Of a DNA stretch of 64,000 bases, positions 9,335-64,000 are shown piece by piece; position 1 is the stretch's first letter; every line of letters starts with the position of its first letter. A model generated the notes under the pieces. The model saw only the letters and a list, made by a program, of their open reading frames with translations, was not told the DNA's origin and did no database searches. Made by a program: the position numbers and the translations under genes. Source of the DNA: Pelagibacterium limicola (GTDB lineage Bacteria > Pseudomonadota > Alphaproteobacteria > Rhizobiales > Devosiaceae); contig NZ_JADQDB010000005.1 in NCBI RefSeq assembly GCF_015694405.1, positions 148,589 through 212,588 on the forward strand. Reading direction: 5' to 3'.

Positions 9335-9437
9335 CATATTGGGCATGGCGTTGAACGTGAGGCGGAATGAACAGGGCAGTTCCTTCAGTCAGCTGTAATG
9401 CGCGGATTTGGGCCGCTTCAGCAGCCGCCCTCGTTTG

Positions 9438-10535
9438 CTACCGCACAACGGTGACCCTTTCGGCCGCACGCGTAATGCCGGTATAAAGCCAGCGCGCCGC
9501 TTCCTCTCGGAAGACAAAGCTCTCGTCGAACAGATAGACGTTATCCCATTGGCTGCCCTGTGCCTTATGGACCGTAAGGCAGTAGCCATAGGTGAATTCA
9601 TCGTATTGGCGACGGAGTTGCCAGCTCATCTCTGCATCCTCTCCAGTAAAGAATGCCTCGTGAGTCCTGACTTTGGTCTGGACCGCGGTACGATCGGCAT
9701 CCTCGGGATCGATGGTCATTTCCAGCGTCCCGCCGGCCCGCTTCTTGATTTCCGCCACTGTCCATATCTGGCCATTCAAAAGCTTTTTCTGCGGATTGTT
9801 TCTAAGGCATACCAGCCGGTCCCCCTTCACGGGTATTTCCGGGGGCAGGTTTTTGAGTTCGCGGATGCGGTTGTTGTAGTGGAGCCGGGTCTTGTTGCGA
9901 CCGACAAGCACCTGATCGACACAAAGCACCTCGGACTGGTCGATGTCAGCGCGCGGGATCACCTTGCTCTCGCCATAAGTTCCGTAGTCGAGCCCCCTGC
10001 CCTCGCGGATATCGAGAGAAAGCCGCACCAGCGGGTTGTCACGTGCCTGGCGGTGAATTTCGGTAAGCATGATATCGGGTTCTTTCGCCGTGAAGAATCC
10101 TTCCCCCTGCACGGGCGGTAACTGGAACGGATCACCGAGCACCAGCACCTTGGTGCCAAAGCTCAAAAGATCGGTGCCCAGCACCTCATCGACCATCGAG
10201 ACTTCGTCGATGACGATCAAATCGGCATTGGCTGCCGCCGATTCCGGGTCGAGTACGAAACGCGGCTCGCCTTCCTTTTCGGAAATCCGCGTATAGATCA
10301 GCGAGTGGATCGTGGACGCGCCCTTGCAGCCGCGCTTGCGCATGACGAGTGCCGCCTTCCCTGTAAAAGCGGCGTATTTGACCGTTTTGACATCCTTGGC
10401 GAGATGCCGCGCGAGGGTGGACTTTCCGGTGCCCGCCCAGCCGAACAGGCGAAAAACCTGTGCGCCACCGGGATCCTTGAGCCAGGCCGCGACAGTTTTC
10501 AGCGCTGCGTCCTGCTGGCTGGACCAGACAACCAT
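9438..10535 (-). CDS. RecD-like ATP-dependent DNA helicase (UvrD/RecD SF1B type)
   Basis: A 365-residue superfamily-1B helicase with a single RecD2-like core and no RecBC partner nearby. Walker A is GWAGTGKSTLAR and Walker B is LIVIDEVSMVDE; the C-terminal helicase motifs are YCLTVHKAQGSQWDNV and YTGITRAAERVTVV. The start was set at the ATG at 10535 (MVVWSSQQ) because the longer frame would overlap the divergent DUF924 gene and its extra residues look non-coding. The cellular role cannot be read from context; related proteins act in DNA repair or resection. Confidence 0.85.
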   Translation of the reverse strand: MVVWSSQQDAALKTVAAWLKDPGGAQVFRLFGWAGTGKSTLARHLAKDVKTVKYAAFTGKAALVMRKRGCKGASTIHSLIYTRISEKEGEPRFVLDPESAAANADLIVIDEVSMVDEVLGTDLLSFGTKVLVLGDPFQLPPVQGEGFFTAKEPDIMLTEIHRQARDNPLVRLSLDIREGRGLDYGTYGESKVIPRADIDQSEVLCVDQVLVGRNKTRLHYNNRIRELKNLPPEIPVKGDRLVCLRNNPQKKLLNGQIWTVAEIKKRAGGTLEMTIDPEDADRTAVQTKVRTHEAFFTGEDAEMSWQLRRQYDEFTYGYCLTVHKAQGSQWDNVYLFDESFVFREEAARWLYTGITRAAERVTVVR

Positions 10536-41840: not shown

Positions 41841-44519
41841 TTAGCTAGCTTTCCGCCAGCGGGCTGAACGGACGAAATCCGGTATGTCCGCCGCTGGCAT
41901 AGGACGGGCAAAGGCGTAACCCTGCAGGGCCGCGCAGCCCATTTCGGCAAGGATGCTGGCATGCTCGCGGGTTTCCACGCCCTCGGCGATCGCGGAAATG
42001 CCCAACGAGGCCCCGATATCGATTATCGACTGCACGAGTGTGCGCTGCTCGCGCGAGCCGGTGATCGGCTGAACAAGCTGGCGGTCGATCTTCAGCCGCT
42101 TGGGCCGCAATTTCATCAGACTCAATATCGAGGCGTAGCCCGTGCCGAAATCGTCGATTTCAATGTCGATCCCGAGTTCCTTGATCTGGTCGATGTTCCA
42201 GCTCACGATCCCTTCGTTTTCGTCGAGATAGATCGACTCGACCAGTTCGAACGCGACCCCGCCCAATGGGATATCGAGGCGTTTCAGCGTGTCGATGAGA
42301 TGTTCATCATGGAGCCGACGCGCCGAGACGTTGACCGAAACGCGCGGAACAAAGATGCCGGCCCTATCCCATTCACAGCGCTGGGCAAGGGATTGTTCGA
42401 GGATCAACCTGTCGAGCGTACCGACGACATTGATATCTTCAGCGATGTTGATGAATGCGTCGGGCGTCAGGATACCGCGGGTCGGGTGGTTCCACCGTGC
42501 CAGCGCCTCCACGCCTATGACGTCGAGCGTGATGGCATCAAACTGGGGCTGGTAATAGGCGATGAATTCACCGTGGTCGAGGCCCGAGAGGATGTCGTCG
42601 GCCACCCGCTTGGTCGTCACGATCTCGGCCTGCAGTTCATCGGAGAAGAACTCGGAGCGGTTGCCGCCGCGTTTTTTTGCCCGGTAAAGCGCGATATCGG
42701 CATTCACCAATAGCTGTTTTGGGGTAACCCCGGTGCAGTCCGCACTGGCGATGCCGATGGAAACGCCGAAACGGCACTCATGGCCCTGAAAAGAAACCGG
42801 GCGGCGCATGGCCCTGATGATACCGCCGGCAAGGTCGCGCAGTTCCACATCTGTTTTTTCGCCCAGGCAGAAGACCACGAACTCGTCACCTCCAATCCGG
42901 GCGACGAAATCGCTCTGGCGTACGGCCGATTTGAGGATTTCGGCAGCATGGATGAGCATGGCATCGCCTGCGGCGTGGCCGAGCGTGTCATTGATCTGTT
43001 TGAACCGGTCCAGATCGACGTGAAGTATCGAAGCCTGGATGGGGATTTTGGCAACCCGCTTCGCATGCATCTCCAGTACATCGTCGAGGTACCGCCTGTT
43101 GGGCAGGGCGGTCAGGGGGTCGTGCAGCGCGTTGTGCTCGATGCGCGCTTTGGCGGTTTCCAGTTCGAAGTTCTTGGCCTCAGCCTGCGTCTTGGCACGC
43201 ATCAAGGCTTCCGAAAGCCGCGCGTCGGCCGTTGCATCCCAGTTGACCCCGAGGATTCTGGGGGGCGATCCAGGGTCCTGATAGACCGAGCCGAGCGCGC
43301 GGATGTGGCGGACCTCGCCTTCCGGGGTCACGACACGAAAATTGGAAACATAGCGCTCCCCGGTGCGCACGGATTCATTGAACTCACGCTCGCAACGCTC
43401 GGCGTCTTCTTCGAGAAGTCTGCTGCGCCAGTGCGTATAGTCTCGCGCGCCCCCATCCTGGGGGTAGCCGTAAATCTCATTCATCCTGTCGTCCCAAGAC
43501 AACTCGCCTGTCAGGATGTTCATCTCCCATACGCCGACCTGGGAAGTGGCGAGGGCGAGTTCGAGACGGCGTGAAAGACGCTGCAGTTCAAGTTCCCGAC
43601 GCTTTTGCTCAATCAGCCGGCGCCGGCGATCGGCGCTGAGCCGGCCAACCAGCATGACCGGGATAAGCACGAAAGCAGCAGCCGCGATCATGGCCATGCG
43701 AAGGAACCACGCGTTAGGCGGCTCGGTGCCCCATCCGCCCTTGGGAACGGCCGCCAATTGCCAGCGGCCTGCAGGGAGTGAGACGTCGGCAAGGATCGGG
43801 TCCATGCCGAATACGGCCGCATCACCAAAGAATACGGTGCCATCAGCCCCCGAGCCGTCCTGACCCGCGATAGCGATGGTCAGCTCCTCACTGAGAGCAT
43901 GAAGCCCGCTTTCGGTATAGAGGCGTTCTGCGTTGATTACGGCAGAGATAATGCCCCAGAATCTGTCGGTTCCGTCCGGCAGTGAAATGAAAACGGGGAA
44001 ACGCGCGATGAAACCCCTGCCTCCCTGGACCAAATGGACCGGTCCCGCAAGCACCATGCGGCCGGTATCACGGGCACGCAAAGCCGTTTCAGACTGTTCG
44101 GGATGATTTGCATAGTCGAGCCCGAGCGCAGCTTCGTTTCCCTCTACCGGATAGATATACCGGATTACGAGATTTGGGGCGGCAGCGATGTTGTTGAGCT
44201 GGTTGTTCTGGGCAAAAAGGTAGCCGGCAAGGCTGGCGAACCGCGCCTGATTCATGTCCGGTTCGGTAGCTATGGTAGATACCAAGCCGTGTACGAGCTG
44301 AATGTTGGAGGTCACCTTGCCTTCCAGTTGAGCTCGTACCAGCGCGATTTGGCCGAGCACCTCGTTGCGCTGGGTTTGCTCGTGAATGGAGCGGTTCTGC
44401 ATTTCGGCAAAGGCAATGGCCGCCACGATCACCACCAGGGCGATAGCGGTAGGGATATTGCTCGCATGGAAGACCCGGCGCGCGAATCTTTTCAGCGCGA
44501 TCGGGACACCGTTAGCCAC
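41841..44519 (-). CDS. CHASE-PAS-GGDEF-EAL cyclic di-GMP enzyme
   Basis: A membrane protein of ~892 residues: TM1, an extracellular CHASE-type sensor, TM2, a PAS domain, then a diguanylate cyclase domain with intact GGDEF (ARIGGDEFVVF) and a phosphodiesterase domain with intact EAL (GVEALARW), DDFGTGYASI and AEGVET. Both catalytic motifs are complete, so either activity is possible. The GTG at 44519 was chosen, with AGAGG upstream, because the frame's first codon (TTG at 44564) overlaps a promoter-like TTGGCT-N17-TATGCG. The signal is unknown. Confidence 0.9.
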   Translation of the reverse strand: MANGVPIALKRFARRVFHASNIPTAIALVVIVAAIAFAEMQNRSIHEQTQRNEVLGQIALVRAQLEGKVTSNIQLVHGLVSTIATEPDMNQARFASLAGYLFAQNNQLNNIAAAPNLVIRYIYPVEGNEAALGLDYANHPEQSETALRARDTGRMVLAGPVHLVQGGRGFIARFPVFISLPDGTDRFWGIISAVINAERLYTESGLHALSEELTIAIAGQDGSGADGTVFFGDAAVFGMDPILADVSLPAGRWQLAAVPKGGWGTEPPNAWFLRMAMIAAAAFVLIPVMLVGRLSADRRRRLIEQKRRELELQRLSRRLELALATSQVGVWEMNILTGELSWDDRMNEIYGYPQDGGARDYTHWRSRLLEEDAERCEREFNESVRTGERYVSNFRVVTPEGEVRHIRALGSVYQDPGSPPRILGVNWDATADARLSEALMRAKTQAEAKNFELETAKARIEHNALHDPLTALPNRRYLDDVLEMHAKRVAKIPIQASILHVDLDRFKQINDTLGHAAGDAMLIHAAEILKSAVRQSDFVARIGGDEFVVFCLGEKTDVELRDLAGGIIRAMRRPVSFQGHECRFGVSIGIASADCTGVTPKQLLVNADIALYRAKKRGGNRSEFFSDELQAEIVTTKRVADDILSGLDHGEFIAYYQPQFDAITLDVIGVEALARWNHPTRGILTPDAFINIAEDINVVGTLDRLILEQSLAQRCEWDRAGIFVPRVSVNVSARRLHDEHLIDTLKRLDIPLGGVAFELVESIYLDENEGIVSWNIDQIKELGIDIEIDDFGTGYASILSLMKLRPKRLKIDRQLVQPITGSREQRTLVQSIIDIGASLGISAIAEGVETREHASILAEMGCAALQGYAFARPMPAADIPDFVRSARWRKAS

Positions 44520-49517: not shown

Positions 49518-50513
49518 ATGAGCTTGTTGAAAAGACTTATTGCAACCACTGCACTTACGGCCGCCATGTTCACATTGGCAGCACCCGCGCAGGCCCAGAC
49601 GCGCATCGCGCTCGTGGTCAAATCGCTGGGTAACGGCTTTTTCGAAGCTGCAAATGCCGGAGCGCGAGAAGCCGCCGAGGAGCTTGGCGATGTCGAGATC
49701 ATCTACACCGGCCCAACCGAACCGACGGCCGAGGCCCAGATCGAGGTTATCAACAGCCTGATCGCCCAGCAGGTCGATGCAATTGCGATTTCGGCAAATG
49801 ACCCCGACGCCCTCGTCCCGGCCCTGCAACGCGCCATGGATCGCGGTATCACCGTCATCTCCTGGGACTCCGGCGTAGCCCCCGAGGGCCGTGCCATGCA
49901 CCTCAATCCCTCTTCAAACGAGTTGATCGGCAACACCATCATCCGCCTTGCTGCAGATCACCTGCCGGACGGGGGGCAAGTCGCCATACTCTCGGCCACC
50001 GCAACCGCCACCAATCAGAACATCTGGATCGATGAAGCGCGTAAGGTGCTGCCCAACTATCCCGGCATCGAACTGGTTACCGTGGTCTATGGCGACGATC
50101 TTGCCGACAAGTCTTATCGGGAAGCGCAGGGCCTGATGCAAACCTACCCTGACCTCGATGCGATCATCGCCCCGACGACGGTGGGCATCGTAGCTGCCGC
50201 CCAGGCGGTGACAGACGCAGGCAAAATCGGTGAGATCAACGTCACCGGGCTCGCTCTGCCCTCGGAGATGGCCGGGCACGTCCACTCCGGCGCCAGCCAG
50301 TCCTTTGCGATCTGGAACCCGATCGATCTTGGCTATTCCGCTGCTTATATCGCCCATGCGCTGGCCACCGGCGCGGCCGTGGCCGAACCGGGCGCAACGA
50401 TCTCCATCGGCCGCGTCGGCGAAATAACCATCGGGGAGAACGGGGAAGCGGCGATGTCCGATCCGTTCACCTATGACGCATCGAACGTGGACGAGTTCAA
50501 GTCCATCTTCTGA
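49518..50513 (+). CDS. rhaS: Rhamnose ABC transporter substrate-binding protein
   Basis: A 331-residue periplasmic sugar-binding protein of the ribose-binding (type I) family. A Sec signal peptide (cleavage near APAQAQ) precedes TRIALVVKSLGNGFFEAANAGAREAA. The segment VDAIAISANDPDALVPAL, with the later TVISWDSG, is typical of the family. It is behind GGGAGGAAATATC and begins 47 bp after rhaR. The name follows the rhizobial nomenclature. Confidence 0.92.
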   Translation: MSLLKRLIATTALTAAMFTLAAPAQAQTRIALVVKSLGNGFFEAANAGAREAAEELGDVEIIYTGPTEPTAEAQIEVINSLIAQQVDAIAISANDPDALVPALQRAMDRGITVISWDSGVAPEGRAMHLNPSSNELIGNTIIRLAADHLPDGGQVAILSATATATNQNIWIDEARKVLPNYPGIELVTVVYGDDLADKSYREAQGLMQTYPDLDAIIAPTTVGIVAAAQAVTDAGKIGEINVTGLALPSEMAGHVHSGASQSFAIWNPIDLGYSAAYIAHALATGAAVAEPGATISIGRVGEITIGENGEAAMSDPFTYDASNVDEFKSIF

Positions 50514-50523
50514 TGTTTCCTTT

Positions 50524-50554
50524 GGCGGTCCGGCATTGGCGCCGGACCGCCTTT
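50524..50554 (+). terminator. Attenuator hairpin between rhaS and rhaT
   Basis: A perfect 11 bp stem GGCGGTCCGGC / GCCGGACCGCC around a 6-base loop, followed by TTT only. It begins 11 bp after the rhaS stop. It would stabilise the rhaS message or partly terminate, giving excess binding protein over the ATPase and permeases. Confidence 0.7.
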
Positions 50555-50620
50555 GACCAACAATGCGACCACGCACCTTTCACGCAGGCGAGCGCACCAT
50601 TCCCAAACGAGCCAGTCACG

Positions 50621-52147
50621 ATGCCTAGGGCCCCAGACAGTGCCGTGCCACGCCCCTGCCTTTCACTAAGGGACGTATCCAAGAGCTTTCCTGGCGTGCG
50701 CGCGCTCAACCGCATCGGGCTCGAACTGCATCCGGGTCAAGTCACCGCTCTCGTTGGCGAAAACGGGGCCGGCAAATCCACTCTGGTTAAAATCCTGACC
50801 GGCATCTACCAGCCCGACGAGGGCGCGATAGAGCTCGACGGGGCGCCGATTTCACTGCCGACGGCACACGCGGCGCTCGACCAAGGCATCACGGCCATCC
50901 ACCAGGAAACGGTCCTGTTCGACGAGCTTTCGGTCGCCGAGAACATCTTTCTCGGTCACGCACCGCGGACGCGGATCGGCTTGATCGACTGGCGCAGGCT
51001 GCGCGCCGAGGCGAGCAGCCTTCTCCAGGCCATGGGCGCACCGATCCACCCCGACATGCGCCTTAAGGACCTATCAATTGCCAACAAGCATCTGGTGGCG
51101 GTTGCCCGTGCCCTGTCGATCGAAGCGCGGATCGTCATCATGGACGAGCCGACCGCGGCCCTCTCGCACAAGGAAATCGAGGAGCTGTTTGTTCTGATCG
51201 ACATGCTCAAGCAAGACGGCAAGGCGATCTTGTTCATATCGCACAAATTCGACGAAATCTTCCGCGTCGCCGACCGATATACGGTTTTTCGCGATGGCGA
51301 AATGGTCGCCTCGGGCATGATGAGGGACACCAGCCAGGCCGAACTTGTTCGCATGATGGTTGGCCGATCAGTCGAGCACGTATTTCCCAAGCAGGATGTC
51401 ACGCCCGGCGAGACCGTCTTGACCGTGAAGGGCCTGACCCATCCGACCGAGTTCGAAGACATCTCCTTTGACCTGCGCCGAGGCGAGATACTGGGCTTTT
51501 ATGGTCTGGTCGGCGCTGGTCGCACCGAGACCATGCAGGCACTTTTCGGCATCACGCGGACGAGCGCCGGCACGGTCACGCTCGATGGGAAGCCTGCGCT
51601 GGCGAAAAACCCGGCCCACGCCGTCGATATGGGGATCGTCTATGTGCCCGAGGATCGGGGACGTCAGGGCGCAGTCATCGGGCTGCCGATCTTTCAGAAC
51701 ATTTCCCTACCCTCGCTGAGGAACACGTCGCGCGCCGGTTTTCTTCATATTGCCAACGAGCTTGCGCTTGCCCGAAAATATTCAGAGCGGCTCGACCTGC
51801 GAGCTGCGGCCCTGGATCAGGACGTCGGCACGCTTTCGGGCGGCAACCAGCAGAAGGTCGTTATCGGCAAGTGGCTGGCCACGCGCCCGCGTGTCATCAT
51901 TCTCGACGAGCCGACCAAAGGCATCGACATCGGCTCGAAGGCAGCCGTCCATGCCTTTATGAGTGAACTTGCGGCGGAAGGGCTTTGCGTCATCATGGTT
52001 TCCTCGGAATTGCCGGAAATAATGGGCATGTCCGATCGGGTGATCGTCATGAGGGAAGGCCGCATCGCGGGCGAGTTCGATCGGTCCGGCCTTAACGCTG
52101 AAACCCTGGTGCGAACCGCCGCCGGGATCGAGGGAGAGGCCGCATGA
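50621..52147 (+). CDS. rhaT: Rhamnose ABC transporter ATP-binding protein
   Basis: A 508-residue sugar ABC ATPase with two fused ATP-binding halves. The first has Walker A GENGAGKSTLVKIL and Walker B IVIMDEPTAALS; the second has signature LSGGNQQKVVIGKWLA and Walker B VIILDEPTKGID. As usual in this subfamily, the second Walker A is degenerate (GLVGAGRTE). The ATG at 50621 was chosen because the fold begins shortly after; the ribosome-binding site is weak. Overlaps rhaP by 4 bp. Confidence 0.93.
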   Translation: MPRAPDSAVPRPCLSLRDVSKSFPGVRALNRIGLELHPGQVTALVGENGAGKSTLVKILTGIYQPDEGAIELDGAPISLPTAHAALDQGITAIHQETVLFDELSVAENIFLGHAPRTRIGLIDWRRLRAEASSLLQAMGAPIHPDMRLKDLSIANKHLVAVARALSIEARIVIMDEPTAALSHKEIEELFVLIDMLKQDGKAILFISHKFDEIFRVADRYTVFRDGEMVASGMMRDTSQAELVRMMVGRSVEHVFPKQDVTPGETVLTVKGLTHPTEFEDISFDLRRGEILGFYGLVGAGRTETMQALFGITRTSAGTVTLDGKPALAKNPAHAVDMGIVYVPEDRGRQGAVIGLPIFQNISLPSLRNTSRAGFLHIANELALARKYSERLDLRAAALDQDVGTLSGGNQQKVVIGKWLATRPRVIILDEPTKGIDIGSKAAVHAFMSELAAEGLCVIMVSSELPEIMGMSDRVIVMREGRIAGEFDRSGLNAETLVRTAAGIEGEAA

Positions 52148-53130
52148 GCATCGTCCTCAAGCACCGCGAAATGATCCTCGTTGCCGCTATCGGCCTCCTG
52201 CTCGCGCTGATATCGATGCGGTTCCCGGCTTTTCTCGAGCCGCGCAATCTGGTGCGTGTCTTCGATGATACGTCCATTCTGGCGATGTTGGCGCTTGGGC
52301 AAATGCTGGTGATCCTTACCCGCTGTATCGACCTTTCCATGGCCGCCAATCTAGCCTTGTGTGGCATGGTGGTCGCCATGCTCAATGCAGCCTTTCCCGG
52401 GGTTCCCGTCCCGGCCCTGATCGCTGGGGGCATGGTGCTCGGCGCGAGCCTCGGCGCGCTCAACGGGGTTTTGGTCTGGAAGCTCAACATGCCTTCCATC
52501 GTTGTCACGCTGGGCACGATGACCATCTTTCGCGGCTCGATCTTTCTTCTCTCGGGAGGCCAGTGGGTCAACGCCCACCAGATGGATGACGCCTTCAAAG
52601 CCCTGCCGCGCACCGTTGCGCTGGGCCTCCCGGTATCGTCGTGGATCGCCGTTGCGGTGATCGGCCTGTTTCTCATTCTCATGAGCCGCGCGCCACTGGG
52701 GAGGGCTTTCTATGCGGTTGGCGTCAACCCAACGGCCTCGGTCTATGCCGGTATCAATGTCGGCCGGACGCGGTTCTTCGCCTTCACCGTGGCAGGCATG
52801 GTTGCCGGGCTGGCGGGTTACCTCTGGGTAGCGCGGTACGCGGTTGCCTATGTGGACATAGCAGGCGGGTTCGAATTGCAGATCATCGCCGCTTGCGTGA
52901 TCGGGGGGGTATCGATCGCAGGCGGGATCGGGACCGTGCCGGGCGCCGTCCTCGGGGCGTTATTCCTTGGCGTGGTCAATAACGCCTTACCCGTCATCAA
53001 TGTTTCGCCCTTCGCGCAAATGGCCATCTCGGGGGCCGTCATCACTGTCGCGGTGATCTTCAATGCCCGCAACGAGCGCAAGAAGGGCCGCATAATCCTG
53101 AAACGGGCGCAGGGGGAGGGCGCAGCATGA
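52144..53130 (+). CDS. rhaP: Rhamnose ABC transporter permease
   Basis: A 328-residue inner-membrane permease of the ribose/rhamnose type (BPD_transp_2), with about nine TM helices. The motif RCIDLSMAANLALCGM and the conserved loop VGVNPTASVYAGINVGRTRFFAF match the family. It overlaps rhaT and rhaQ by 4 bp each (ATGA), indicating tight translational coupling. Confidence 0.93.
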   Translation: MSIVLKHREMILVAAIGLLLALISMRFPAFLEPRNLVRVFDDTSILAMLALGQMLVILTRCIDLSMAANLALCGMVVAMLNAAFPGVPVPALIAGGMVLGASLGALNGVLVWKLNMPSIVVTLGTMTIFRGSIFLLSGGQWVNAHQMDDAFKALPRTVALGLPVSSWIAVAVIGLFLILMSRAPLGRAFYAVGVNPTASVYAGINVGRTRFFAFTVAGMVAGLAGYLWVARYAVAYVDIAGGFELQIIAACVIGGVSIAGGIGTVPGAVLGALFLGVVNNALPVINVSPFAQMAISGAVITVAVIFNARNERKKGRIILKRAQGEGAA

Positions 53131-54131
53131 CCCAGATACCCCATATCTCACGCGCGATACCGGACCGGCTCGAGAGCCCGCTGGCCACCGCGCTCAAGAG
53201 CTGGGAAATGCTGCTGATCGTCGTGGCGATAGCGATCTTCATCGCAAACAGCCTGGCGTCCCCCTATTTCCTCAACCCGTGGAGCCTGTCGGACGCGACT
53301 TTCAATTTCACGGAGAAGGCGATCATCGCACTGGCGATGGCCATGGTCATCATATCGGGCGAAATCGATCTTTCGGTGGCATCCATTATCGCCCTTGCCT
53401 CCACGGCCATGGGGTTTGCCCTTCAATTTGGTGCCGATGCGCCAACGCTTGCCGCAATAGGGATTTTGGTCGGAATTGCGTGCGGCGCGTTCAACGGCCT
53501 GCTGGTCAGCGGGCTCGGTCTGCCCTCGATTGTGGTCACCATCGGCACGATGAGCCTTTTCCGAGGCATTTCCTATATTGTCCTGGGCGACCAGGCATTT
53601 CGCGGCTATCCGCGCGATTTCGCATGGTTTGGTCAGGGTTATGTCTGGTGGGTCGTTTCGTTCGAGATCGTCCTGTTTCTCGCTCTGGCAATTGTCTTTT
53701 ATGTTCTTCTCCATCGCACCAATTTCGGGCGAGCCGTCTTTGCCATCGGCAATAACCCGCTCGCAGCCCAGTTCTCGGGCATTCGCATTCGACGGGTGAA
53801 ATTCGTGCTTTTCGTTCTTACCGGCCTGACAGCGGGAATAGCATCCGTGCTGCTGACGGCCCGCCTCGGGTCCACGCGACCGTCCATTGCATCCGGCTGG
53901 GAACTTGAGATCGTCACGATGGTCGTCCTGGGTGGCGTGTCGATCCTGGGAGGATCGGGCAGCATTGCCGGGGTGGTCATTGCTGCATTCATCATGGGGC
54001 TGGTCACGTTCGGACTGGGCCTGCTCAATGTCCCGGGGATCGTCATGTCCATCTTTGTCGGGGTCATGCTGATTGTCGTTATCGCCCTTCCCGTCGTTGC
54101 GCGGCGCCTCCGAGAGCGCAGAGCTGTCTGA
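53127..54131 (+). CDS. rhaQ: Rhamnose ABC transporter permease
   Basis: A 334-residue permease paired with RhaP, same family. Family motifs are SGEIDLSVASIIALAST and IGNNPLAAQFSGIRIRRVKF. About nine TM helices. Followed by rhaK two bases after its stop codon. Confidence 0.93.
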   Translation: MTQIPHISRAIPDRLESPLATALKSWEMLLIVVAIAIFIANSLASPYFLNPWSLSDATFNFTEKAIIALAMAMVIISGEIDLSVASIIALASTAMGFALQFGADAPTLAAIGILVGIACGAFNGLLVSGLGLPSIVVTIGTMSLFRGISYIVLGDQAFRGYPRDFAWFGQGYVWWVVSFEIVLFLALAIVFYVLLHRTNFGRAVFAIGNNPLAAQFSGIRIRRVKFVLFVLTGLTAGIASVLLTARLGSTRPSIASGWELEIVTMVVLGGVSILGGSGSIAGVVIAAFIMGLVTFGLGLLNVPGIVMSIFVGVMLIVVIALPVVARRLRERRAV

Positions 54132-54133
54132 CG

Positions 54134-55507
54134 ATGCGCCATGTCGGGGTCATTGATGTCGGCAAGACAAACGCAAAGGTCGTGGCCGTCGACCTGAGCG
54201 CCATGCGCGAGACTGCCGTGCGAACCGCGCCCAATCGCGTGCTGGCTGGCCCTCCATACGCCCACTTCGATATCGACGGGCTTTGGGGCTTCATCAGAAC
54301 CGCCCTCGCAGAAATCAACCGCGAATTTCCCCTCGATGCCATTTCAATCACGACGCACGGGGCATGTGCGGCCCTCATCACGGAAGATGGCAGCCTTGCC
54401 CTGCCTGTACTCGATTATGAAAGTGCAGATCCCGAGGCATCGGCATCTGCCTATGATGCGATCCGGCCCGGCTTTGAGACAAGCTATTCGCCGCGCTTGC
54501 CGGGCGGCTTGAACCTGGGGGCGCAACTCTTTTACCAGGCCCGGCGGTATCCCCAAGCGTTTGCGCAAGTGCGCTGGATTCTCACCTATCCTCAATACTG
54601 GGCCTATCGCTTCACCGGCGTGACCGCGAGCGAGTTGACCTCGCTGGGCTGCCACACGGATCTATGGGACTTCCGAACCTGGGGATTTTCATCGCTCGTA
54701 AAGGAGGAAGGCTGGCTAGACAGGTTTCCGCCGCTCCAGCCTGCAGATGGGGCACTTGGCCCGATGCGGGCGGATCTCGCTCGCGAATTGGGGCTGGCTT
54801 CCTCGGTGCCGGTCGCATGTGGAATTCACGACTCCAATGCCTCGCTCGTCCCCCACTTCTTAATGCGGCAACCGCCGTTTTCCGTCGTATCCACCGGCAC
54901 CTGGGTTATTGCCTGCTCGCCGGGTGGAGACCTTGAGCGACTTGATCCAACCCGCGACTGCCTTGCCAATATCGACGCTTTCGGCAGACCCGTCCCATCG
55001 GCGCGATTTATGGGCGGGCGAGAGTTCTCAACGCTGATCCCCTCGTCCGTTGAAACGCCGTCCAGCGCTAGCGCTGCCGACATTCTCGCACGCGGGGTCA
55101 TGTTGTTGCCGACGATACTGCCAGGCTCCGGGCCCTTCCCGAACCGTACAGCGAACTGGACCCAGGATCCGGAAAGCCTTTCACAAGCCGAGCGACACGT
55201 CGTGGCGTCGTTTTACCTGGCCCTTATGACGTCGGAATGCCTCGTTATGACGGCGGGGGAAGGCGTGATCGCTGTCGAGGGTCCCTTCTCGCGTAATGCG
55301 CTTTACTGCGCGATGCTGGCAAGCGCGACCGGTCGCCCGGTGGTCACCACGGAAAATGCCACGGGGACCAGTATCGGGGCAGCGATGCTGGTTGCGCCGA
55401 GCCAGGGGGCCGCTCCACCCGTTGCGGACGACGAAAAATTCCTGCCCGATCCTCCGATGGCCCGCTACGCGGCCGCCTGGCGGTCCGCGCTCGAACGAAC
55501 GGCATAG
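54134..55507 (+). CDS. rhaK: FGGY-family L-rhamnulokinase
   Basis: A 457-residue sugar kinase with the two-domain actin-like fold: N-terminal phosphate-1 segment IDVGKTNAKVVAVD and the adenosine-proximal region TAGEGVIAVEGPFSRNAL. In Rhizobium leguminosarum the equivalent kinase is needed not only for catabolism but also for rhamnose transport activity; that is family knowledge, not seen here. It is the last gene of rhaR-S-T-P-Q-K. Confidence 0.9.
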   Translation: MRHVGVIDVGKTNAKVVAVDLSAMRETAVRTAPNRVLAGPPYAHFDIDGLWGFIRTALAEINREFPLDAISITTHGACAALITEDGSLALPVLDYESADPEASASAYDAIRPGFETSYSPRLPGGLNLGAQLFYQARRYPQAFAQVRWILTYPQYWAYRFTGVTASELTSLGCHTDLWDFRTWGFSSLVKEEGWLDRFPPLQPADGALGPMRADLARELGLASSVPVACGIHDSNASLVPHFLMRQPPFSVVSTGTWVIACSPGGDLERLDPTRDCLANIDAFGRPVPSARFMGGREFSTLIPSSVETPSSASAADILARGVMLLPTILPGSGPFPNRTANWTQDPESLSQAERHVVASFYLALMTSECLVMTAGEGVIAVEGPFSRNALYCAMLASATGRPVVTTENATGTSIGAAMLVAPSQGAAPPVADDEKFLPDPPMARYAAAWRSALERTA

Positions 55508-55682: not shown

Positions 55683-56873
55683 ATGCAACTTCTCGTCGTC
55701 GAACCCGATCACAGCCAGCAGGCGCTTCTCGGCGCCATGGCCTCGCAGATGGGGCATGAGGCCACCTTTGTCCGGACCGGTGAGGAGGCGCTCGGGGTTA
55801 TCGAAGATGAGCCCGCATCCACACTCTTATGCAACATGGACCTTCCGGAAATGTCCGGGCTCGATCTCATGCATCTGCTACGGCAGCGCAGCTATGACCG
55901 TTACCTCTATGCGATCCTGTTTACCGGTCGGGATCCGGACGTAGCGTATCTCGATGCCCTCACCGCCGGGGCGGACGACTTCATGGCGACGCCCATCCGG
56001 CGGCGCACGCTTGATGTGCGGCTGCAGGTGGCCGAGCGCGTTCTCCGCTACGACGACCGGCTGCGCGCCACCAGGCTCCGGCTCGAAAAGGCCAATTCCG
56101 AAATCACGCAAGGGCTGCAGGAGGCGAGCCGGGCTCAGGCCCGCCTTCTACCAGCACCAGGCAGAATCCCCGGTGACTTCAAGGTCGATCTCTTGTTCCG
56201 TCCGGCCAACTTCGTATCGGGGGACATGCTCGGCACCATCGCCATCAACAATGCGTGCATGGGGTTCTATGCAGTGGACGTGGCGGGGCATGGGATGCGG
56301 TCTGCCCTTCGGGCGGTAACGCTCTCCCATACGATTACCAACCAGCTTTTTCTCGATACCGTGGGCAGCGCACGCCCTTGGGCGCCAGGTCGGCGCTTTG
56401 TTCCCGACAGGCTGGCGGCGCTGCTCAACGAGCGCTTTGTCGAAGAACTCGATACGGACGACTACTTTTCACTGATGTGCGGAATTGTCGATCTCGAAGC
56501 CGGCGAGGCTATCGTCTGTCAGGCCGGTCACCCACGCGCCATGATCATGCGCCAAGGCGGTGCGATCGAGTGGATTGGACAGGGCGGGTATCCGGTAGGC
56601 TTGCTTTCCGATGCGCAATTCGTTTCTGAACGCACCGTATTTCGACCCGGCGACCACCTGGTCATTTTCTCGGATGGCATCAGCGAGGCCGAATCCCCAA
56701 CAGGCGAGCCCTTCGGCGAGGCCAATCTCGCGAGAACCTGCGCCGCAGCCGTAAAGGACGGAGCCCCTCTTTCCTCCGCGGTCGAACATGCACTTGAAAC
56801 CTGGGTCGCCGCCGAGCGTTTCCAAGATGACGTATCGCTGTTGATCGTCTCGGCGGGAGGGAAACATGCTTGA
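55683..56873 (+). CDS. Receiver-PP2C (SpoIIE/RsbU-type) serine phosphatase
   Basis: A 396-residue cytosolic protein: a receiver domain (residues ~1-120), a coiled-coil linker (~121-155) and a PP2C phosphatase domain (~160-396). The phosphatase metal ligands are intact: SGDM (D181), DVAGHG (D199), FSDG (D331) and QDDVS (382-383). The receiver keeps its phosphoacceptor D53 (NMDLPEMSG) and T81, but the conserved Lys is replaced by Thr (ATP at 102-104). Such proteins dephosphorylate a STAS antagonist, here presumably the next gene's product. The ATG at 55683 has AGGA six bases upstream; its end overlaps the STAS gene by 8 bp. Confidence 0.9.
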   Translation: MQLLVVEPDHSQQALLGAMASQMGHEATFVRTGEEALGVIEDEPASTLLCNMDLPEMSGLDLMHLLRQRSYDRYLYAILFTGRDPDVAYLDALTAGADDFMATPIRRRTLDVRLQVAERVLRYDDRLRATRLRLEKANSEITQGLQEASRAQARLLPAPGRIPGDFKVDLLFRPANFVSGDMLGTIAINNACMGFYAVDVAGHGMRSALRAVTLSHTITNQLFLDTVGSARPWAPGRRFVPDRLAALLNERFVEELDTDDYFSLMCGIVDLEAGEAIVCQAGHPRAMIMRQGGAIEWIGQGGYPVGLLSDAQFVSERTVFRPGDHLVIFSDGISEAESPTGEPFGEANLARTCAAAVKDGAPLSSAVEHALETWVAAERFQDDVSLLIVSAGGKHA

Positions 56874-57204
56874 ATGGCAGGATGAACAAGAAGGCATTAC
56901 GGTCGTCAGGTTGACCGAAGAAAGTCTCACCGCATCCAATGCAGCCTCGTTCCGAGCTCGGCTGTCCGAACTGGCGGAAGGCGGGCGTACGCGGCTGATT
57001 CTGGATCTGGCCAATGTCCGTTATGTCGACTCCAGCGGGCTCGGAGCACTGGTGAGCCTGCTCAAGCGCATCGGGGTAAAGGGCGAACTGGCACTGTGTG
57101 CCGTGGCCCCTGCCGTCATGTCGGTCCTTACGCTCACCCGAATGGACAAGGTCTTCTCCATCTACGCCGATCGCGGGGCGGCCGTTGAGGGCTTGTCCGA
57201 GTGA
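56866..57204 (+). CDS. STAS-domain anti-sigma factor antagonist (RsbV-like)
   Basis: A 112-residue single STAS domain. The phosphorylatable serine lies in RYVDSSGLGALVSL (Ser56), at the position used by RsbV/SpoIIAA. It would be phosphorylated by the HATPase kinase encoded next and dephosphorylated by the upstream PP2C. Starts inside the phosphatase gene (8 bp overlap) and overlaps the kinase gene by 4 bp. Confidence 0.9.
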   Translation: MLEWQDEQEGITVVRLTEESLTASNAASFRARLSELAEGGRTRLILDLANVRYVDSSGLGALVSLLKRIGVKGELALCAVAPAVMSVLTLTRMDKVFSIYADRGAAVEGLSE

Positions 57205-57653
57205 TCGAGCGCGCCACCAGATCCGACCTCCGTATCGCGATCCCGGCCGAGCACCACCACGTGCCGGCCCTGGTGGCTTGGCTTGACCGCGAGCTCGCCC
57301 CCCATTGTCCCCAATGGCGGTATTTTCAGGTGCGGGCAGCGATCGTCGAGGCGGTCAACAACGTCGTGAGTCACGGACTTGACGGGGGTGCGCCCGACCA
57401 GCAGATCGAACTCGGCCTGAGGATCGCCGGCCGCTCGGTTGCGATTGACCTTGAGGACCGCGGGCGCCCGATCCCTTCTGACAAGCTCGATTCCGCACGT
57501 CTTCCCGATTTCGATCCCGACCATATCGATCACCTTCCCGAATCTGGATTCGGGCTGGGAATCATCGCAGCAGCCGTCGACCGGCTCACCTATCGTTCGG
57601 GGTCCGGTCGCAACTGCCTGACGTTGACCGTCGCGCTGGAGGATGCGCCATGA
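57201..57653 (+). CDS. RsbW-like serine kinase / anti-sigma factor (HATPase_c)
   Basis: A 150-residue GHKL ATPase. N box: EAVNNVVSHG; G1: EDRGRPI; G2: ESGFGLGIIAAAVD. These define the anti-sigma/partner-switch kinase family. The start is GTG at 57201. No sigma factor gene lies in the cluster, so the partner controlled may be the STAS protein and the downstream enzyme rather than a sigma factor; that is inference. Confidence 0.88.
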   Translation: MIERATRSDLRIAIPAEHHHVPALVAWLDRELAPHCPQWRYFQVRAAIVEAVNNVVSHGLDGGAPDQQIELGLRIAGRSVAIDLEDRGRPIPSDKLDSARLPDFDPDHIDHLPESGFGLGIIAAAVDRLTYRSGSGRNCLTLTVALEDAP

Positions 57654-58915
57654 GGGTCCTTGCTTCCCATGCCGCTCCTCGAAACAACTCGCACGCTCCC
57701 CTCCAGAGTGAAGAGGACGAGAGCTTGGATTTCGCAGAGCTGATTGATGCCGATGCGGAAAAGCGGATGGCGCCGCTCACTCGGCTCGCCGCCCAGATAA
57801 CGGGCCTCCGCGGTACGTTTGTCGGCCTTTCGTCTCACGGTGCCATCCATTACCGGGCCCTATCCGACTGGAAGCGCGCGCGGCCTCCGCTTCCCGATGT
57901 TCTGTGCGCAGCCACCATCGATCGAAACAAAACGCTCGTGGTTCCCGATACGCGCCGCGAACCGATGCTCGCGAAGGATGGGTCGGTCGCGGGCCCTCAT
58001 GGAACCAGGTTCTACGTTGGCGCACCGATACGCATGCGTTCCGGTCCCGCAATCGGTGTCCTTGGCGCGGTCGACACCGTCCCGCATCCGCGGCCCGGAA
58101 GGGAGGCGTTGGACGGACTGGAAATGCTCGCCGAAATGGCAGGCGACCAGATTGCCTTGCTTTCAACCCTGAGACAGTCCGCACGGGCGCAGCACCACAT
58201 GCACGAGGCTGCGGACTCCGTTCCCTACGGTCTGCTCATGGAGGATGCCGAGGGCAAAGTGGTCATGGCCAACGCTGCGTTCGACAAAATGACAGACCTG
58301 CCGACAGGGATCGCCAAGATCGGGATGTCGACAGGCGATGTCCTTGGCCTCCTCGCCATGTCGGGCCTTTTTCCCGATGCCGAGGGCAACGAGCGAAATT
58401 GGGCCGCCGAACGCCTGAGTCGACCGACGCCGTCGGTCGAACGGCTGCGCCTCTCCGACCAGCGTGAAGTCCTGGCCACTCGCCATCGTACGCGGTCCGG
58501 CGGGACGGTTTGGCTTTGGACCTCGCTCCCCGCGCGGCGCGCAAACGCGCAGCTTCTGCCCCGTCCAGCCGCACCGGCGCCGGCCAATCCTGAGATCATT
58601 CAGCCCCAGCGCCTGACGGAACTGCGCGAGGATCTGTCCGACGAGGCCTTCGACTCCGTCCTCGTCGAGTTGGTCAAGGACATCGAAAAGCGGCGCGATG
58701 AGCTCGTGCTTACGCTCGCTGCCGATGATCAGAAAAACCTCGAACGCTCTGCGGCTGCAATCGCCACCCTGGCCAGCAATCTCGGTGCATCGGAGGTGCA
58801 TGCTGCGGCCCAGACCGTGACCCGCGATGTGACCGACAAACCGGCACTGGAGGCGCTGTTTGCCGCAGTCGCGCGCTCGATGGAAGCCCTGCAGGTGGAG
58901 CTCGGTCGCTGGTGA
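57650..58915 (+). CDS. GAF-PAS protein with a degenerate HPt-like domain
   Basis: A 421-residue soluble sensor-like protein. A GAF-like domain (about residues 30-175, with FYVGAPIRMRSGPAIGVLGAV), a PAS domain (~185-295, GLLMEDAEGKVVMANAAFDKMT), a Pro/Ala-rich linker (~300-318) and a C-terminal helical HPt-like domain (~318-421). The HPt core ends in SNLGA (376-380), as HPt domains do, but the phosphoacceptor His position (369) is Ala and the following Lys is also absent. It therefore cannot relay phosphate in the usual way. Overlaps its neighbours by 4 bp on both sides. Confidence 0.75.
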   Translation: MRVLASHAAPRNNSHAPLQSEEDESLDFAELIDADAEKRMAPLTRLAAQITGLRGTFVGLSSHGAIHYRALSDWKRARPPLPDVLCAATIDRNKTLVVPDTRREPMLAKDGSVAGPHGTRFYVGAPIRMRSGPAIGVLGAVDTVPHPRPGREALDGLEMLAEMAGDQIALLSTLRQSARAQHHMHEAADSVPYGLLMEDAEGKVVMANAAFDKMTDLPTGIAKIGMSTGDVLGLLAMSGLFPDAEGNERNWAAERLSRPTPSVERLRLSDQREVLATRHRTRSGGTVWLWTSLPARRANAQLLPRPAAPAPANPEIIQPQRLTELREDLSDEAFDSVLVELVKDIEKRRDELVLTLAADDQKNLERSAAAIATLASNLGASEVHAAAQTVTRDVTDKPALEALFAAVARSMEALQVELGRW

Positions 58916-60732
58916 GTTTTTATTTCGACAGATTTGAGGATCGGCGTCCTCCCGAACCGGTGCCCCATTCGGCGTTGCGCCAATCGGTATTCCGGCTCCT
59001 TGCTTTAGCGGCCGTCGCCACCGGCCTCTGGTACCTGAGCTGGCGCTGGACCGCCTCGCTCAACTACGAGGCTCTGTGGTTCGCACTGCCTCTGGTTCTT
59101 GCCGAAACCTGCGCTTTTATCGGCCTCCTGCTCTACTATATCAATCTCTGGAAGGTCTCGGATCCCCCGATCACCCCCCCGCCTGCAACCATCGCAGAAT
59201 GCGTTCCCGATCTGCATGGCCCCGATCGCCCCCTTAGCGTCGATGTCTTTTTCGCGACCTACAACGAGGATCCTGAACTCGTGCGGCTGGGCATCCGCGA
59301 CGCCCGCGCGATGCGCTATCCCCACCCGTTAAACCTCGTCATCCACGTGCTTGACGACGGGCGACGGGAGGAGATGCGCGCGGTCGCCGAACAAGAAGGC
59401 GTCAATTACATCACAAGGCCCGATAATGCCGGCTACAAGGCCGGCAATCTGCGCAATGGGATCGAGGAGACCGATGGCGATTTCATCCTGATCTGCGATG
59501 CCGACACCCGGCCTTTCCCAACGCTGCTCGAACGCACCATGGGCTATTTCCGCGACCCTAGGGTCGCCTGGGTTCAGACCCCACAGTGGTTTTTCGATCT
59601 GCCCGAAGGCATCGGGCTGGGCGAGGCGCTTGGGCAGGCCTTGGGGCGCCCCGGGCGGACAATCGGAGGCGCGATCGAAAGGGTCTTCGGACCGATAAGG
59701 TTCGGTGAGGATCCGTTCGTCTCGGACCCGCGCCTGTTTTACGATGTTCTGCTGCGCCGGAGAAACTGGGCGAATGCCGCCTTTTGTTGTGGCGCCGCCT
59801 CCATACATCGCCGTGAAGCGGTAATCGAAGCCGCTCTCCGATCCTACGGCGCCGCGGTCGAGCGGGCCATGAACCTCACGACAGCGAGCATAAGCCGGGC
59901 TCCCGGAGAGAACGCGGTCTCCACAGGGTTGCTCAATGCCATACGTGACGAGGCGGCGCACGCGATCGAGTTCACACCATACAAATTCCACGTCTCCGAA
60001 GACATCTACACCTCGATTGTCCTCCATTCGGACCGCGAGCGCGATTGGCGCTCCATCCAGCATCCCTATGTAGAATCCAAGATGCTTTCCCCCCAGGATC
60101 TTCTGTCCTGGACGGTTCAAAGGTTCAAATACGCTGGCGGGACGCTGGACATCTTCTTTCACGACAATCCGCTTTGGCGCAAAGGTCTCTCGCTGCCGCA
60201 AAAGCTGATGTATGGCTCGACCTTCTGGTCCTATCTCGGCGCCATCTGGAACCTCGTTTTCCTTGCGGCGCCGGTGATCTATCTGCTGACAGGCATCGCG
60301 CCGGTCGACGGATTCACGGTGGAATTGTTCAACCGACTTCTACCCTTCCTGATCGCCATGGAACTGGCGGCGATGGTCGGAACATGGGGGATTCCCGGCA
60401 ACCGAGGCAAGTCCAGCTATCTCTCGTTCTTCCCGATCAATCTCCAGGCGATATGGACGGTTGTCACCGGCCGGCCCATTGCATTCAAGGTCACGCCCAA
60501 ACAGCGGCAGCAGGGAAGATTTTACCGGCTGGTCTGGCCTCAAATCGCCGTCATGGGCCTTACACTGGGAGCCATTGCATATGCCTTGAGCCTGCATCTG
60601 GCGGGCTCGGACCAGTATTCACTTACCGGGCTCGTGGCCAACATATTTTGGGGCTTTCACAACTGCATGGCTTTGGCCGGCATCGTTTATGCGGCAGGTT
60701 GGCAACCGCCCGCCAGCGAGGCAAAAACATGA
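58912..60732 (+). CDS. GT2 polysaccharide synthase (cellulose-synthase-like, no PilZ)
   Basis: A 606-residue processive GT2 inner-membrane glycosyltransferase. Two N-terminal TM helices (~27-48, 55-78), a cytosolic GT-A domain with DDG (148-150), DAD (196-198), catalytic-base motif SED (362-364) and QRFKY (403-407, in place of QxxRW), then about four C-terminal TM helices. BcsA-type cellulose synthases end with a c-di-GMP-binding PilZ domain; none is present. The product could be cellulose-like or another beta-glucan. No BcsB/C/Z genes are nearby. Start GTG at 58912, overlapping the previous gene by 4 bp. Confidence 0.85.
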   Translation: MSFYFDRFEDRRPPEPVPHSALRQSVFRLLALAAVATGLWYLSWRWTASLNYEALWFALPLVLAETCAFIGLLLYYINLWKVSDPPITPPPATIAECVPDLHGPDRPLSVDVFFATYNEDPELVRLGIRDARAMRYPHPLNLVIHVLDDGRREEMRAVAEQEGVNYITRPDNAGYKAGNLRNGIEETDGDFILICDADTRPFPTLLERTMGYFRDPRVAWVQTPQWFFDLPEGIGLGEALGQALGRPGRTIGGAIERVFGPIRFGEDPFVSDPRLFYDVLLRRRNWANAAFCCGAASIHRREAVIEAALRSYGAAVERAMNLTTASISRAPGENAVSTGLLNAIRDEAAHAIEFTPYKFHVSEDIYTSIVLHSDRERDWRSIQHPYVESKMLSPQDLLSWTVQRFKYAGGTLDIFFHDNPLWRKGLSLPQKLMYGSTFWSYLGAIWNLVFLAAPVIYLLTGIAPVDGFTVELFNRLLPFLIAMELAAMVGTWGIPGNRGKSSYLSFFPINLQAIWTVVTGRPIAFKVTPKQRQQGRFYRLVWPQIAVMGLTLGAIAYALSLHLAGSDQYSLTGLVANIFWGFHNCMALAGIVYAAGWQPPASEAKT

Positions 60733-60881
60733 GATTCCGCGACGGGTTGGTGGCCGCACGCGGCCATCTGATATTCATTGTCGTCCTCTGCGTGCTTTTC
60801 GGCGCACTACAACACCTTGATCGCACGCAAGGCGGGACCGACCTTCCAGAAGCGTCTGCGACCACAATCCAGACCCGATGA
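60729..60881 (+). CDS. 50-residue single-pass membrane peptide
   Basis: A small ORF coupled to the GT2 gene by a 4 bp ATGA overlap, with GAGG eight bases before its ATG. It encodes a basic N-terminus (MRFRDGLVAARG), one TM helix (HLIFIVVLCVLFGALQHL) and a short polar tail ending in IQTR. No family is recognised. Small membrane subunits accompany some polysaccharide synthases, so an accessory or stability role is a reasonable guess. Confidence 0.65.
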   Translation: MRFRDGLVAARGHLIFIVVLCVLFGALQHLDRTQGGTDLPEASATTIQTR

Positions 60882-62657: not shown

Positions 62658-64000
62658 TCATCCCCCATCCTTGTCGAGAAATGCCAAAGCCGAGGCGACA
62701 TCGGGCTTGTACTTGACCATGGGCGGGCGGACGCCATGGGTCAGGAGCATCCGCCGGATGGGAGCGCGCGCACCGGCGATGATGAACCTTATGCCCGATT
62801 GACGTGCCTTGCGCGCGGCACCTTCGAGCGCGTGGGCGGCGGTCGAGTCGAGCACCGGCAGGTCGGTGCAATCGAGCACAAAGTTTTTGCGCTGATCGGC
62901 TATGCGATCGAGGATCGCTCCAACGCTCGCCGCTGCGCCGAAAAAGAAGGCCCCGGAAATCTTGTATACGACCGTAGCGTTATCGGTCGCTTGCCTGGGG
63001 TCGTATGGAGACTTGTCATCAGTCTCGGGATGGGTATGCGTTGCCTTGCGTTCTTCGATGGCCACCGCAGCCGCCATGCGGTGAATGAACAAGAGCGCGC
63101 CGAGCGCAAAGCCCACGACGATACCCTCGGTCAGGTCGCGGAAAACGACCAGCAGGAAAGTCACTGCCAAAACCGCGGCGTCCCCGCGCGAGCCGCGGAA
63201 CAGCGCCGAGATCGCGTGACGCTCGATCATGTTCCAGGCGACGACCACCAGTACCCCCGCCAGGGCAGCGAGGGGGATGTAGCTGGCAAGTGGTGCGGCG
63301 ACCATCACGAAGCCGAGCAGGAAGAGCGCATGGAGCATTCCCGAAACCGGCGTGCGTCCGCCCGAGCGCACATTGGTCGCGGTGCGCGCGATGGTCCCGG
63401 TGACACAGATGCCGCCGAAAAGTGCCGAACCGATATTGGCAATGCCCTGACCGAGAAGCTCGGAATTGGAGCGGTGCCGCCGCCCCGTCATGCCGTCGGC
63501 GACGACAGCAGAGAGCAGCGATTCGATCGCCCCCAGGAGCGCAAATGCAATGGCATCGGGCAAGACCGCGATGATCCGCTCCCCACTGATCTCAGGCAAG
63601 GCGGGAACGGGTAGCGCATTGGGAATACCGCCGAACTGGCTCCCGATGGTTGCGACCGGCAGGCCGAACAGGCCGGCAATTAGCGCTGTAGCGGCCACCG
63701 CAATCAACAAGGCCGGCAATCTCGGTGCGAAACGGTTGAGCGCAAGGATCATCGCGATGGTTCCGAATCCCACCGCAACCGCAACACCATTCATGGTGGG
63801 GAGCGCGACCCAAAGTACGTGGAGCTTTTCGACGATTTCGCCCGGCTCCCGCCCGTCGAGCGTGAGTCCGAACAAATCCCGTAGCTGGCTGGCCAGGATG
63901 ATAATCGCAATGCCGGCGGTAAATCCCACCGTCACCGGATATGGAATGAACTTGATGAAGGTGCCCAGGCGCAGCAATCCGATGCCGATCATCAACACCC
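62658..64000 (-). CDS. SulP-family anion transporter with STAS domain, N-terminus cut off
   Basis: The C-terminal ~447 residues of a SulP (SLC26-type) inner-membrane anion transporter; the frame is open to the window edge, so the first TM helices are missing. TM region: FIPYPVTVGFTAGIAIIILASQ near the left of the protein and later GGRTPVSGMLHALFLLGF. The C-terminal cytosolic STAS domain has VLDCTDLPVLDSTAAHALEG. The substrate may be sulfate, bicarbonate or another anion; no carbonic anhydrase or cys gene is visible. Confidence 0.88.
   Translation of the reverse strand, partial: VLMIGIGLLRLGTFIKFIPYPVTVGFTAGIAIIILASQLRDLFGLTLDGREPGEIVEKLHVLWVALPTMNGVAVAVGFGTIAMILALNRFAPRLPALLIAVAATALIAGLFGLPVATIGSQFGGIPNALPVPALPEISGERIIAVLPDAIAFALLGAIESLLSAVVADGMTGRRHRSNSELLGQGIANIGSALFGGICVTGTIARTATNVRSGGRTPVSGMLHALFLLGFVMVAAPLASYIPLAALAGVLVVVAWNMIERHAISALFRGSRGDAAVLAVTFLLVVFRDLTEGIVVGFALGALLFIHRMAAAVAIEERKATHTHPETDDKSPYDPRQATDNATVVYKISGAFFFGAAASVGAILDRIADQRKNFVLDCTDLPVLDSTAAHALEGAARKARQSGIRFIIAGARAPIRRMLLTHGVRPPMVKYKPDVASALAFLDKDGG

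Follow-up and report, generated by a model that had tools for sequence, protein, structure and literature searches.

A cassette of six genes at positions 55683-60881 of a 64,000-nucleotide stretch of the Pelagibacterium limicola genome (contig NZ_JADQDB010000005.1, positions 148,589 to 212,588; hereafter the window) joins a partner-switching module, comprising a PP2C-type phosphatase, a STAS protein and an RsbW-like serine kinase, to a membrane-bound glycan synthase of glycosyltransferase family 2 (GT2). We lean, by a modest degree of confidence, towards the reading that the phosphorylation state of STAS acts as a post-translational gate on the glycan synthase machinery, thereby taking the place of control by cyclic di-GMP (c-di-GMP) and PilZ. 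The cassette is a pared-down form of a larger cluster and belongs, as a streamlined member, to a glycan-synthesis system that is widespread and apparently uncharacterised.

An earlier note, made from the DNA letters alone, had described six genes chained by overlaps of 4-8 bp, and frames, coordinates and overlaps all proved to be as claimed. On the + strand, a protein of 396 residues comprising a pseudoreceiver and a PP2C phosphatase of the SpoIIE/RsbU type (55683-56873; Pfam Response_reg and SpoIIE) is followed, with an overlap of 8 bp, by a single-domain STAS protein of 112 residues bearing a DSSGLG motif (56866-57204; Pfam STAS). Each of the remaining genes overlaps its predecessor by 4 bp: the RsbW/SpoIIAB-like serine kinase of 150 residues (57201-57653; HATPase_c_2), a GAF-PAS protein with a C-terminal histidine phosphotransfer (HPt)-like domain, here termed pseudo-HPt (57650-58915; GAF and PAS_7), a BcsA-like processive GT2 synthase of 606 residues (58912-60732; Glycos_transf_2) and a membrane anchor of 50 residues (60729-60881), which yielded no significant Pfam family. 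All six frames are open and free of frameshifts. Pfam detected neither a sigma factor nor PilZ among the six proteins, and a promoter and terminator scan gave no signal exceeding that of shuffled sequences. Since the G+C fraction of the cassette (0.618) is no outlier against that of the whole window (0.613), composition lends no support to a foreign or recent import.

The reading of a gated synthase is supported by the conserved linkage of GT2 and partner switch. The loci are the top 80 GT2 hits (56-65% identity) from a single profile scan of named genomes, so that their number describes this GT2 clade rather than all such synthases, and three order-level loci brought the total to 83 (55-65% identity). 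They are drawn from alpha-, beta- and gammaproteobacteria and Desulfoluna, with hosts that include Devosia, Paracoccus, other Rhodobacterales, Sphingobium, Thiothrix, Vibrio, Photobacterium, Shewanella and a methylotroph. Both STAS and the kinase lie within the fetched flanks in 80 of 80 testable loci, three others being truncated by a contig end on the side that matters, and PP2C accompanies them in nearly all of these, with one locus cut by a contig edge. At least five arrangements of the module relative to GT2 occur: a tandem module upstream (65 loci, or 69 counting four whose kinase was visible only by profile), a convergent module downstream (6), a divergent one (one locus), PP2C on the far side (two) and a mixed form (one). 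These variants fall on separate branches of the GT2 tree; hence the linkage has outlived several rearrangements. The earlier note had asked for the six-gene order across alphaproteobacteria and had regarded confinement to close relatives as telling against its proposal. Linkage in every testable locus reaches far beyond close relatives, while the exact six-gene order is not conserved.

Within the same 83 loci, sigma-factor homologues were found in only three, at no shared position, which together with their absence from the cassette bears out the view of a unit devoid of sigma factors. Likewise, no credible GGDEF protein was detected; a GG(D/E)EF motif occurred a single time, antisense to a DUF3131 gene. 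Because no sigma factor is shared, the linkage is conserved through rearrangements and GT2 carries neither PilZ nor a BgsA-like C-terminal domain, the claim that the synthase is the sole effector of the operon holds across the family. Copies of the cluster also reside on plasmids of Pantoea, Salmonella, Paracoccus and others. The Pantoea and Salmonella plasmids encode a GT2 of 57% identity beside SpoIIE, STAS and kinase genes, and the window cassette shares this feature of an orthologous GT2 beside a PP2C/STAS/kinase module. In the enterobacterial plasmid layout, SpoIIE, STAS, kinase and OpgC genes are divergent from GT2 and accompanied by three DUF3131 genes, a globin, a hybrid kinase and a GH2 gene. 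The best GT2 match (locus L040) comes from a record labelled Mycobacterium sp. KBS0706, which would be a strange carrier of a proteobacterial cluster, and the label may be wrong.

A corresponding picture emerges from the genome itself (3.47 Mb; the window lies on its contig C7) and from its relatives. The genome encodes a single SpoIIE protein and a single short HATPase_c_2 protein, other HATPase_c_2 matches lying in longer frames, as well as five STAS matches, of which three lie in long frames. GT2 is missing from all 12 further genomes of this genus, and in an order-wide sample of 249 genomes the synthase proper occurs in four, namely this genome plus three that match at 55-58% identity; the other hits cover only part of the protein and resemble cellulose-synthase relatives. 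SpoIIE is present in 128 of the 249 genomes, and nine sampled genomes of the same genus or family contain neither SpoIIE nor GT2. Since these relatives are devoid of both, module and synthase occur together in the own genome.

The residues required of a functional partner switch are retained. PP2C preserves its metal-binding aspartate motifs (GDM, DVAGHG, SDG and DD), Ser56 of STAS is invariant in 81 of 81 aligned rows, and in the kinase E50, N54, H58 and G118 are invariant in 78 rows and D86 in 74 of the 78. Thus, the gene set of the RsbU/RsbV/RsbW type is complete and encoded together: a PP2C with metal-binding aspartates, a STAS protein with a conserved serine and a HATPase kinase with an N-box. 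The assignments of STAS with its Ser56 and of an RsbW-like kinase therefore stand. NCBIfam places the STAS protein in the anti-sigma-antagonist superfamily, and a phmmer search of the kinase against solved structures gave no match at an E value of 0.01.

The synthase keeps the DDG, DAD and SED motifs and the FxVTPK gating-loop motif, and QRFKY, whose Q, R, K and Y do not vary in any of 84 sequences, replaces QxxRW. By NCBIfam, its best score was to CelA, far below threshold. A structural model (mean predicted local distance difference test score, pLDDT, 83.9) found BcsA as the best solved fold (VIA-align Z 31, 490 residues, 2.5 Å), and aligns with residues 192-698 of Escherichia coli BcsA and 57-582 of R. 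sphaeroides BcsA, ending where PilZ starts. In agreement with the Pfam result, this upholds the view of a GT2 lacking PilZ; beyond the last membrane helix there is just a short tail and no C-terminal cytosolic domain. GT2 hence resembles the cellulose synthase BcsA in fold, D,D,D layout and FxVTxK gating-loop motif, but differs in the absence of PilZ and of a C-terminal domain, in QRFKY and in a cytosolic helical insertion at residues ~303-355, between the HRRE and SED motifs; moreover, its genes cluster with those of DUF3131/OpgC type, whereas BcsA clusters with BcsB. The insertion measures 54-59 residues in the module-linked synthases measured versus 29-41 in four relatives from clusters without kinase or PP2C, a contrast which may reflect one evolutionary event because these four outgroup sequences are also the most divergent. 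Four further synthases that were missed by the motif pattern and read by eye possess the insertion as well. The insertion at 303-355 is a candidate docking site for STAS.

The sixth gene turned out differently from its earlier description as a 50-residue membrane peptide. A membrane peptide is indeed present, but it constitutes no independent gene family and instead corresponds to the N-terminal anchor found in the cluster's DUF3131 protein. GT2 is followed in relatives by a gene for a DUF3131 protein, which begins with a membrane anchor conforming to xFxxxLxxARSHIxFLxxL; the window peptide aligns with this anchor and then ends, the DUF3131 domain being absent. A model of a full-length DUF3131 protein from a relative (mean pLDDT 89.9) begins at residues 3-32 with a short helix and then a membrane helix, and continues through a linker into a helical barrel. 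Among solved structures, this barrel comes closest to putative glucoamylases, endo-beta-1,2-glucanases and the domain responsible for cyclisation in cyclic beta-1,2-glucan synthase. This predicted fold suggests a glucan of the beta-1,2 or periplasmic type rather than cellulose. Since Devosia nitrariae also possesses a short version of the anchor (52 residues), the anchor is retained where the enzyme domain was lost. By analogy with the membrane anchor of BcsB, which serves BcsA, the anchor itself may serve GT2. In the convergent version of the cluster (locus L033, 5168-6250 and 11464-14205; locus L032, 11665-14163), GH10 and TPR genes flank the PP2C and GT2 genes, and one of them gives a weak match to the PgaA barrel, which suggests a secretion route replacing DUF3131.

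A further connection of STAS to glycan synthesis is provided by a sugar nucleotidyltransferase gene, which directly follows STAS in 29 of the 29 loci having one of the cluster's type. In two genomes of another family, the STAS domain is fused to this enzyme, at L146 11484-12980 (- strand), where the phospho-serine position is lost, and at L151 ~8798-10174 (- strand). Both clusters run in the order acyltransferase, fusion, unknown, GT2 and DUF3131, and neither contains a kinase or PP2C; one of the genomes is devoid of any SpoIIE and the other has one SpoIIE on a different contig. In the one fusion that was read, arginine occupies the position of Ser56. The fusion ties STAS to the glycan pathway and, because the fused STAS carries arginine for Ser56 in a cluster devoid of kinase and PP2C, it fits unphosphorylated STAS as the active (ON) state. 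On account of the adjacency and the two fusions, STAS may contact either the precursor supply or the whole complex.

The input arm of the window cassette has been dismantled. PP2C is intact in its catalytic motifs, but what the earlier note took for a receiver is degenerate, with asparagine at the acceptor aspartate, threonine at the conserved lysine and a broken acid pair, whereas acceptor aspartate and lysine are retained in 72 of 72 related receivers. The C-terminal domain of the fourth protein is recognised by a profile of the relatives' HPt domains (E value 4e-10 in a two-sequence search) with alanine aligned to the phospho-accepting histidine, which, together with the Pfam GAF and PAS_7 domains, supports its designation as GAF-PAS-pseudoHPt. 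The earlier note had thus recognised the pseudo-HPt and overlooked the loss at the receiver end: going by these residues, the His-Asp phosphorelay of the window is broken at both ends, compatible with either a phosphorylation-independent contact or input loss. Devosia sp. RYN_484 has a PAS-HisKA-HATPase-REC-HPt hybrid kinase encoded behind the kinase gene, the window having its fourth gene in the same place; the PP2C receiver is the domain that an HPt of this kind would supply. In some relatives, the receiver is replaced by a HAMP-containing N-terminal part, while in 12 loci a gene for the heme-NO sensor H-NOX lies near the receiver-PP2C gene, among them L043 (1080-3355, - strand) and L050 (1370-3687, - strand), and a hybrid histidine kinase adjoins H-NOX in both loci examined. 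Hence, the input side is modular around a fixed core of STAS/kinase/PP2C and GT2. The plasmid clusters L152 and L153 encode a globin and a hybrid kinase, and nitric oxide or oxygen may be an input of the glycan switch. A BLAST count of loci with hybrid kinases was set aside, as receiver domains of PP2C can match.

The earlier note had referred to Syp of Vibrio and Hsb of Pseudomonas, which are relevant precedents, and had missed the nearest ones, SiaABCD and BgrRSTUVW/BgsBA of Sinorhizobium. The latter partner switch and BgsBA were reportedly the subject of Baena et al. 2019. In Sinorhizobium meliloti, likewise an alphaproteobacterium, PP2C BgrU, STAS BgrV and kinase BgrW control a PilZ-less, BcsA-like GT2 glucan synthase (PMC7647112, PMC5567048). 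Their target, however, is the diguanylate cyclase BgrR, and BgsA is activated by c-di-GMP at a 139-residue C-terminal tail (PMC5567048), which is missing in the window GT2. None of the Sinorhizobium plasmids was matched by the window STAS at an E value of 1e-3 or by GT2 at 1e-60. In SiaABCD of Pseudomonas aeruginosa, a PP2C, a kinase, a STAS-like protein and an enzyme effector are encoded in one operon, and the STAS-like protein activates the effector by binding to control biofilm formation, so that SiaC-SiaD sets a precedent for a STAS-type protein that switches an enzyme of its own operon (PMC7647112). Unlike the cassette, the Sia operon is devoid of GT2, the effector is a diguanylate cyclase and the phosphorylated residue is threonine. 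Because neither a linked cyclase nor a c-di-GMP-binding tail is present, the cassette belongs to neither the SiaABCD nor the Bgr type. The STAS proteins of HsbRA-HsbD (P. aeruginosa) and SypA/SypE (Vibrio fischeri) also control biofilm output, and SypA is active when unphosphorylated, its target not being known (PMC6482189, PMC8256260); by contrast with the cassette, HsbA also acts on FlgM/sigma and SypA sits in an 18-gene locus of another type. Finally, the gene list of accessory block 3b of Klebsiella pneumoniae, reported without function (PMC12974863), matches the enterobacterial plasmid layout, and the block may thus hold the same GT2; block and plasmid clusters differ from the window in being much larger and in containing globin, hybrid kinase and GH2 genes.

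In the immediate neighbourhood, a sugar ATP-binding cassette (ABC) transporter operon (binding protein, ATPase and two permeases; window positions 49518-55507), whose last gene encodes an FGGY kinase of the FGGY_C_2 type, lies just upstream of the cassette. On the - strand, a GGDEF protein with an EAL-like motif is encoded at 42500-43130 within a frame of 908 residues, ~13 kb from the cassette and among the genome's 19 GGDEF matches, and a SulP sulfate permease with a C-terminal STAS domain, not related to the switch, at 62658-63998.

Under the proposed mechanism, the kinase would phosphorylate STAS at Ser56 and PP2C would remove the phosphate, as predicted from their motifs. Unphosphorylated STAS would then bind the membrane GT2 complex and permit polymerisation, the contact and the sense of the switch both being presumed; in other lineages STAS may act through the nucleotidyltransferase. 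In the window, where the His-Asp input is dismantled at both ends, the GAF-PAS protein probably steers PP2C by phosphorylation-independent contact of pseudo-HPt and pseudoreceiver, and the 50-residue peptide would be a retained membrane anchor partnering GT2. The earlier proposal that STAS phosphorylation rather than c-di-GMP and PilZ gates synthesis is supported in part, by the lack of sigma factors, the conserved linkage and the missing PilZ; a direct STAS-GT2 contact is hypothetical. Several points weigh against it. A partial mirror-tree comparison of GT2 segments with STAS, kinase and PP2C yielded correlations for most segments and singled out no GT2 surface for the putative contact. Where present, the nucleotidyltransferase is an equally good partner of STAS, and the module could act on transcription via a distant factor, linked merely as a neighbour of its target operon. 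Moreover, the window GT2 sits on a long tree branch, which along with the lost domains could mean decay. The most specific version, in which a widespread class of processive glycan synthases is switched after translation by a single-domain STAS that docks on the 303-355 insertion and whose serine phosphorylation replaces c-di-GMP, driven in the window by a phosphorylation-dead pseudo-HPt/pseudoreceiver pair, is put forward tentatively and is itself rather doubtful.

Most studied HATPase_c_2/STAS pairs have sigma factors as their targets, and a classical partner switch, in which the kinase acts as anti-sigma factor on a sigma factor whose gene lies elsewhere, with GT2 just linked or a transcriptional target, has to be weighed first. 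Kinase and STAS score best against anti-sigma and anti-anti-sigma models, the own genome contains nine Sigma70_r2 matches, though none of the nine on contig C7, and RbaVWY of Rhodobacter capsulatus also lacks a linked sigma gene, its target being unresolved (PMC3999984). Nevertheless, we consider this explanation unlikely, given that no sigma gene occupies a common position in the 83 loci despite repeated rearrangement of the module, that a biosynthetic enzyme carries a fused STAS in two genomes' clusters without kinase or PP2C, and that module and GT2 co-occur while relatives have neither. That STAS gates precursor supply through the nucleotidyltransferase instead of GT2 across the whole family would account for the 29 adjacent genes and for both fusions, yet seems quite improbable, as most alphaproteobacterial clusters, including that of the window, keep the module without a nucleotidyltransferase beside STAS. 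The cassette might also be a decaying remnant whose broken receiver, HPt and DUF3131 leave the switch stuck on or off. The lost aspartate, lysine, histidine and DUF3131 domain and the long GT2 branch point that way; the intact, tightly overlapping frames, the fully conserved motifs of GT2, STAS, kinase and PP2C and the recurrence of the short anchor in Devosia nitrariae render decay a poor prospect. Least probable is that STAS controls a diguanylate cyclase and the synthase is in turn activated by c-di-GMP, as with SiaABCD, HsbRAD and BgrRSTUVW/BgsBA: such biochemistry is established for the nearest characterised systems (PMC7647112, PMC6482189) and the own genome has 19 GGDEF matches, but the clusters are devoid of GGDEF proteins and GT2 of both PilZ and a BgsA-type tail.

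In the part of the literature covered, no functional study of DUF3131 or of partner switching with cellulose synthase was found. If gating by STAS is true, it would constitute a second general gating route for BcsA-like synthases, which employs serine phosphorylation instead of c-di-GMP, in a system spanning marine and soil proteobacteria as well as enterobacterial plasmids. Moreover, it would supply a direct target other than a sigma factor for orphan STAS/kinase pairs, a long-standing question from SypA and RbaV, and genes presently annotated as 'anti-sigma factor' and 'cellulose synthase' would need new labels.

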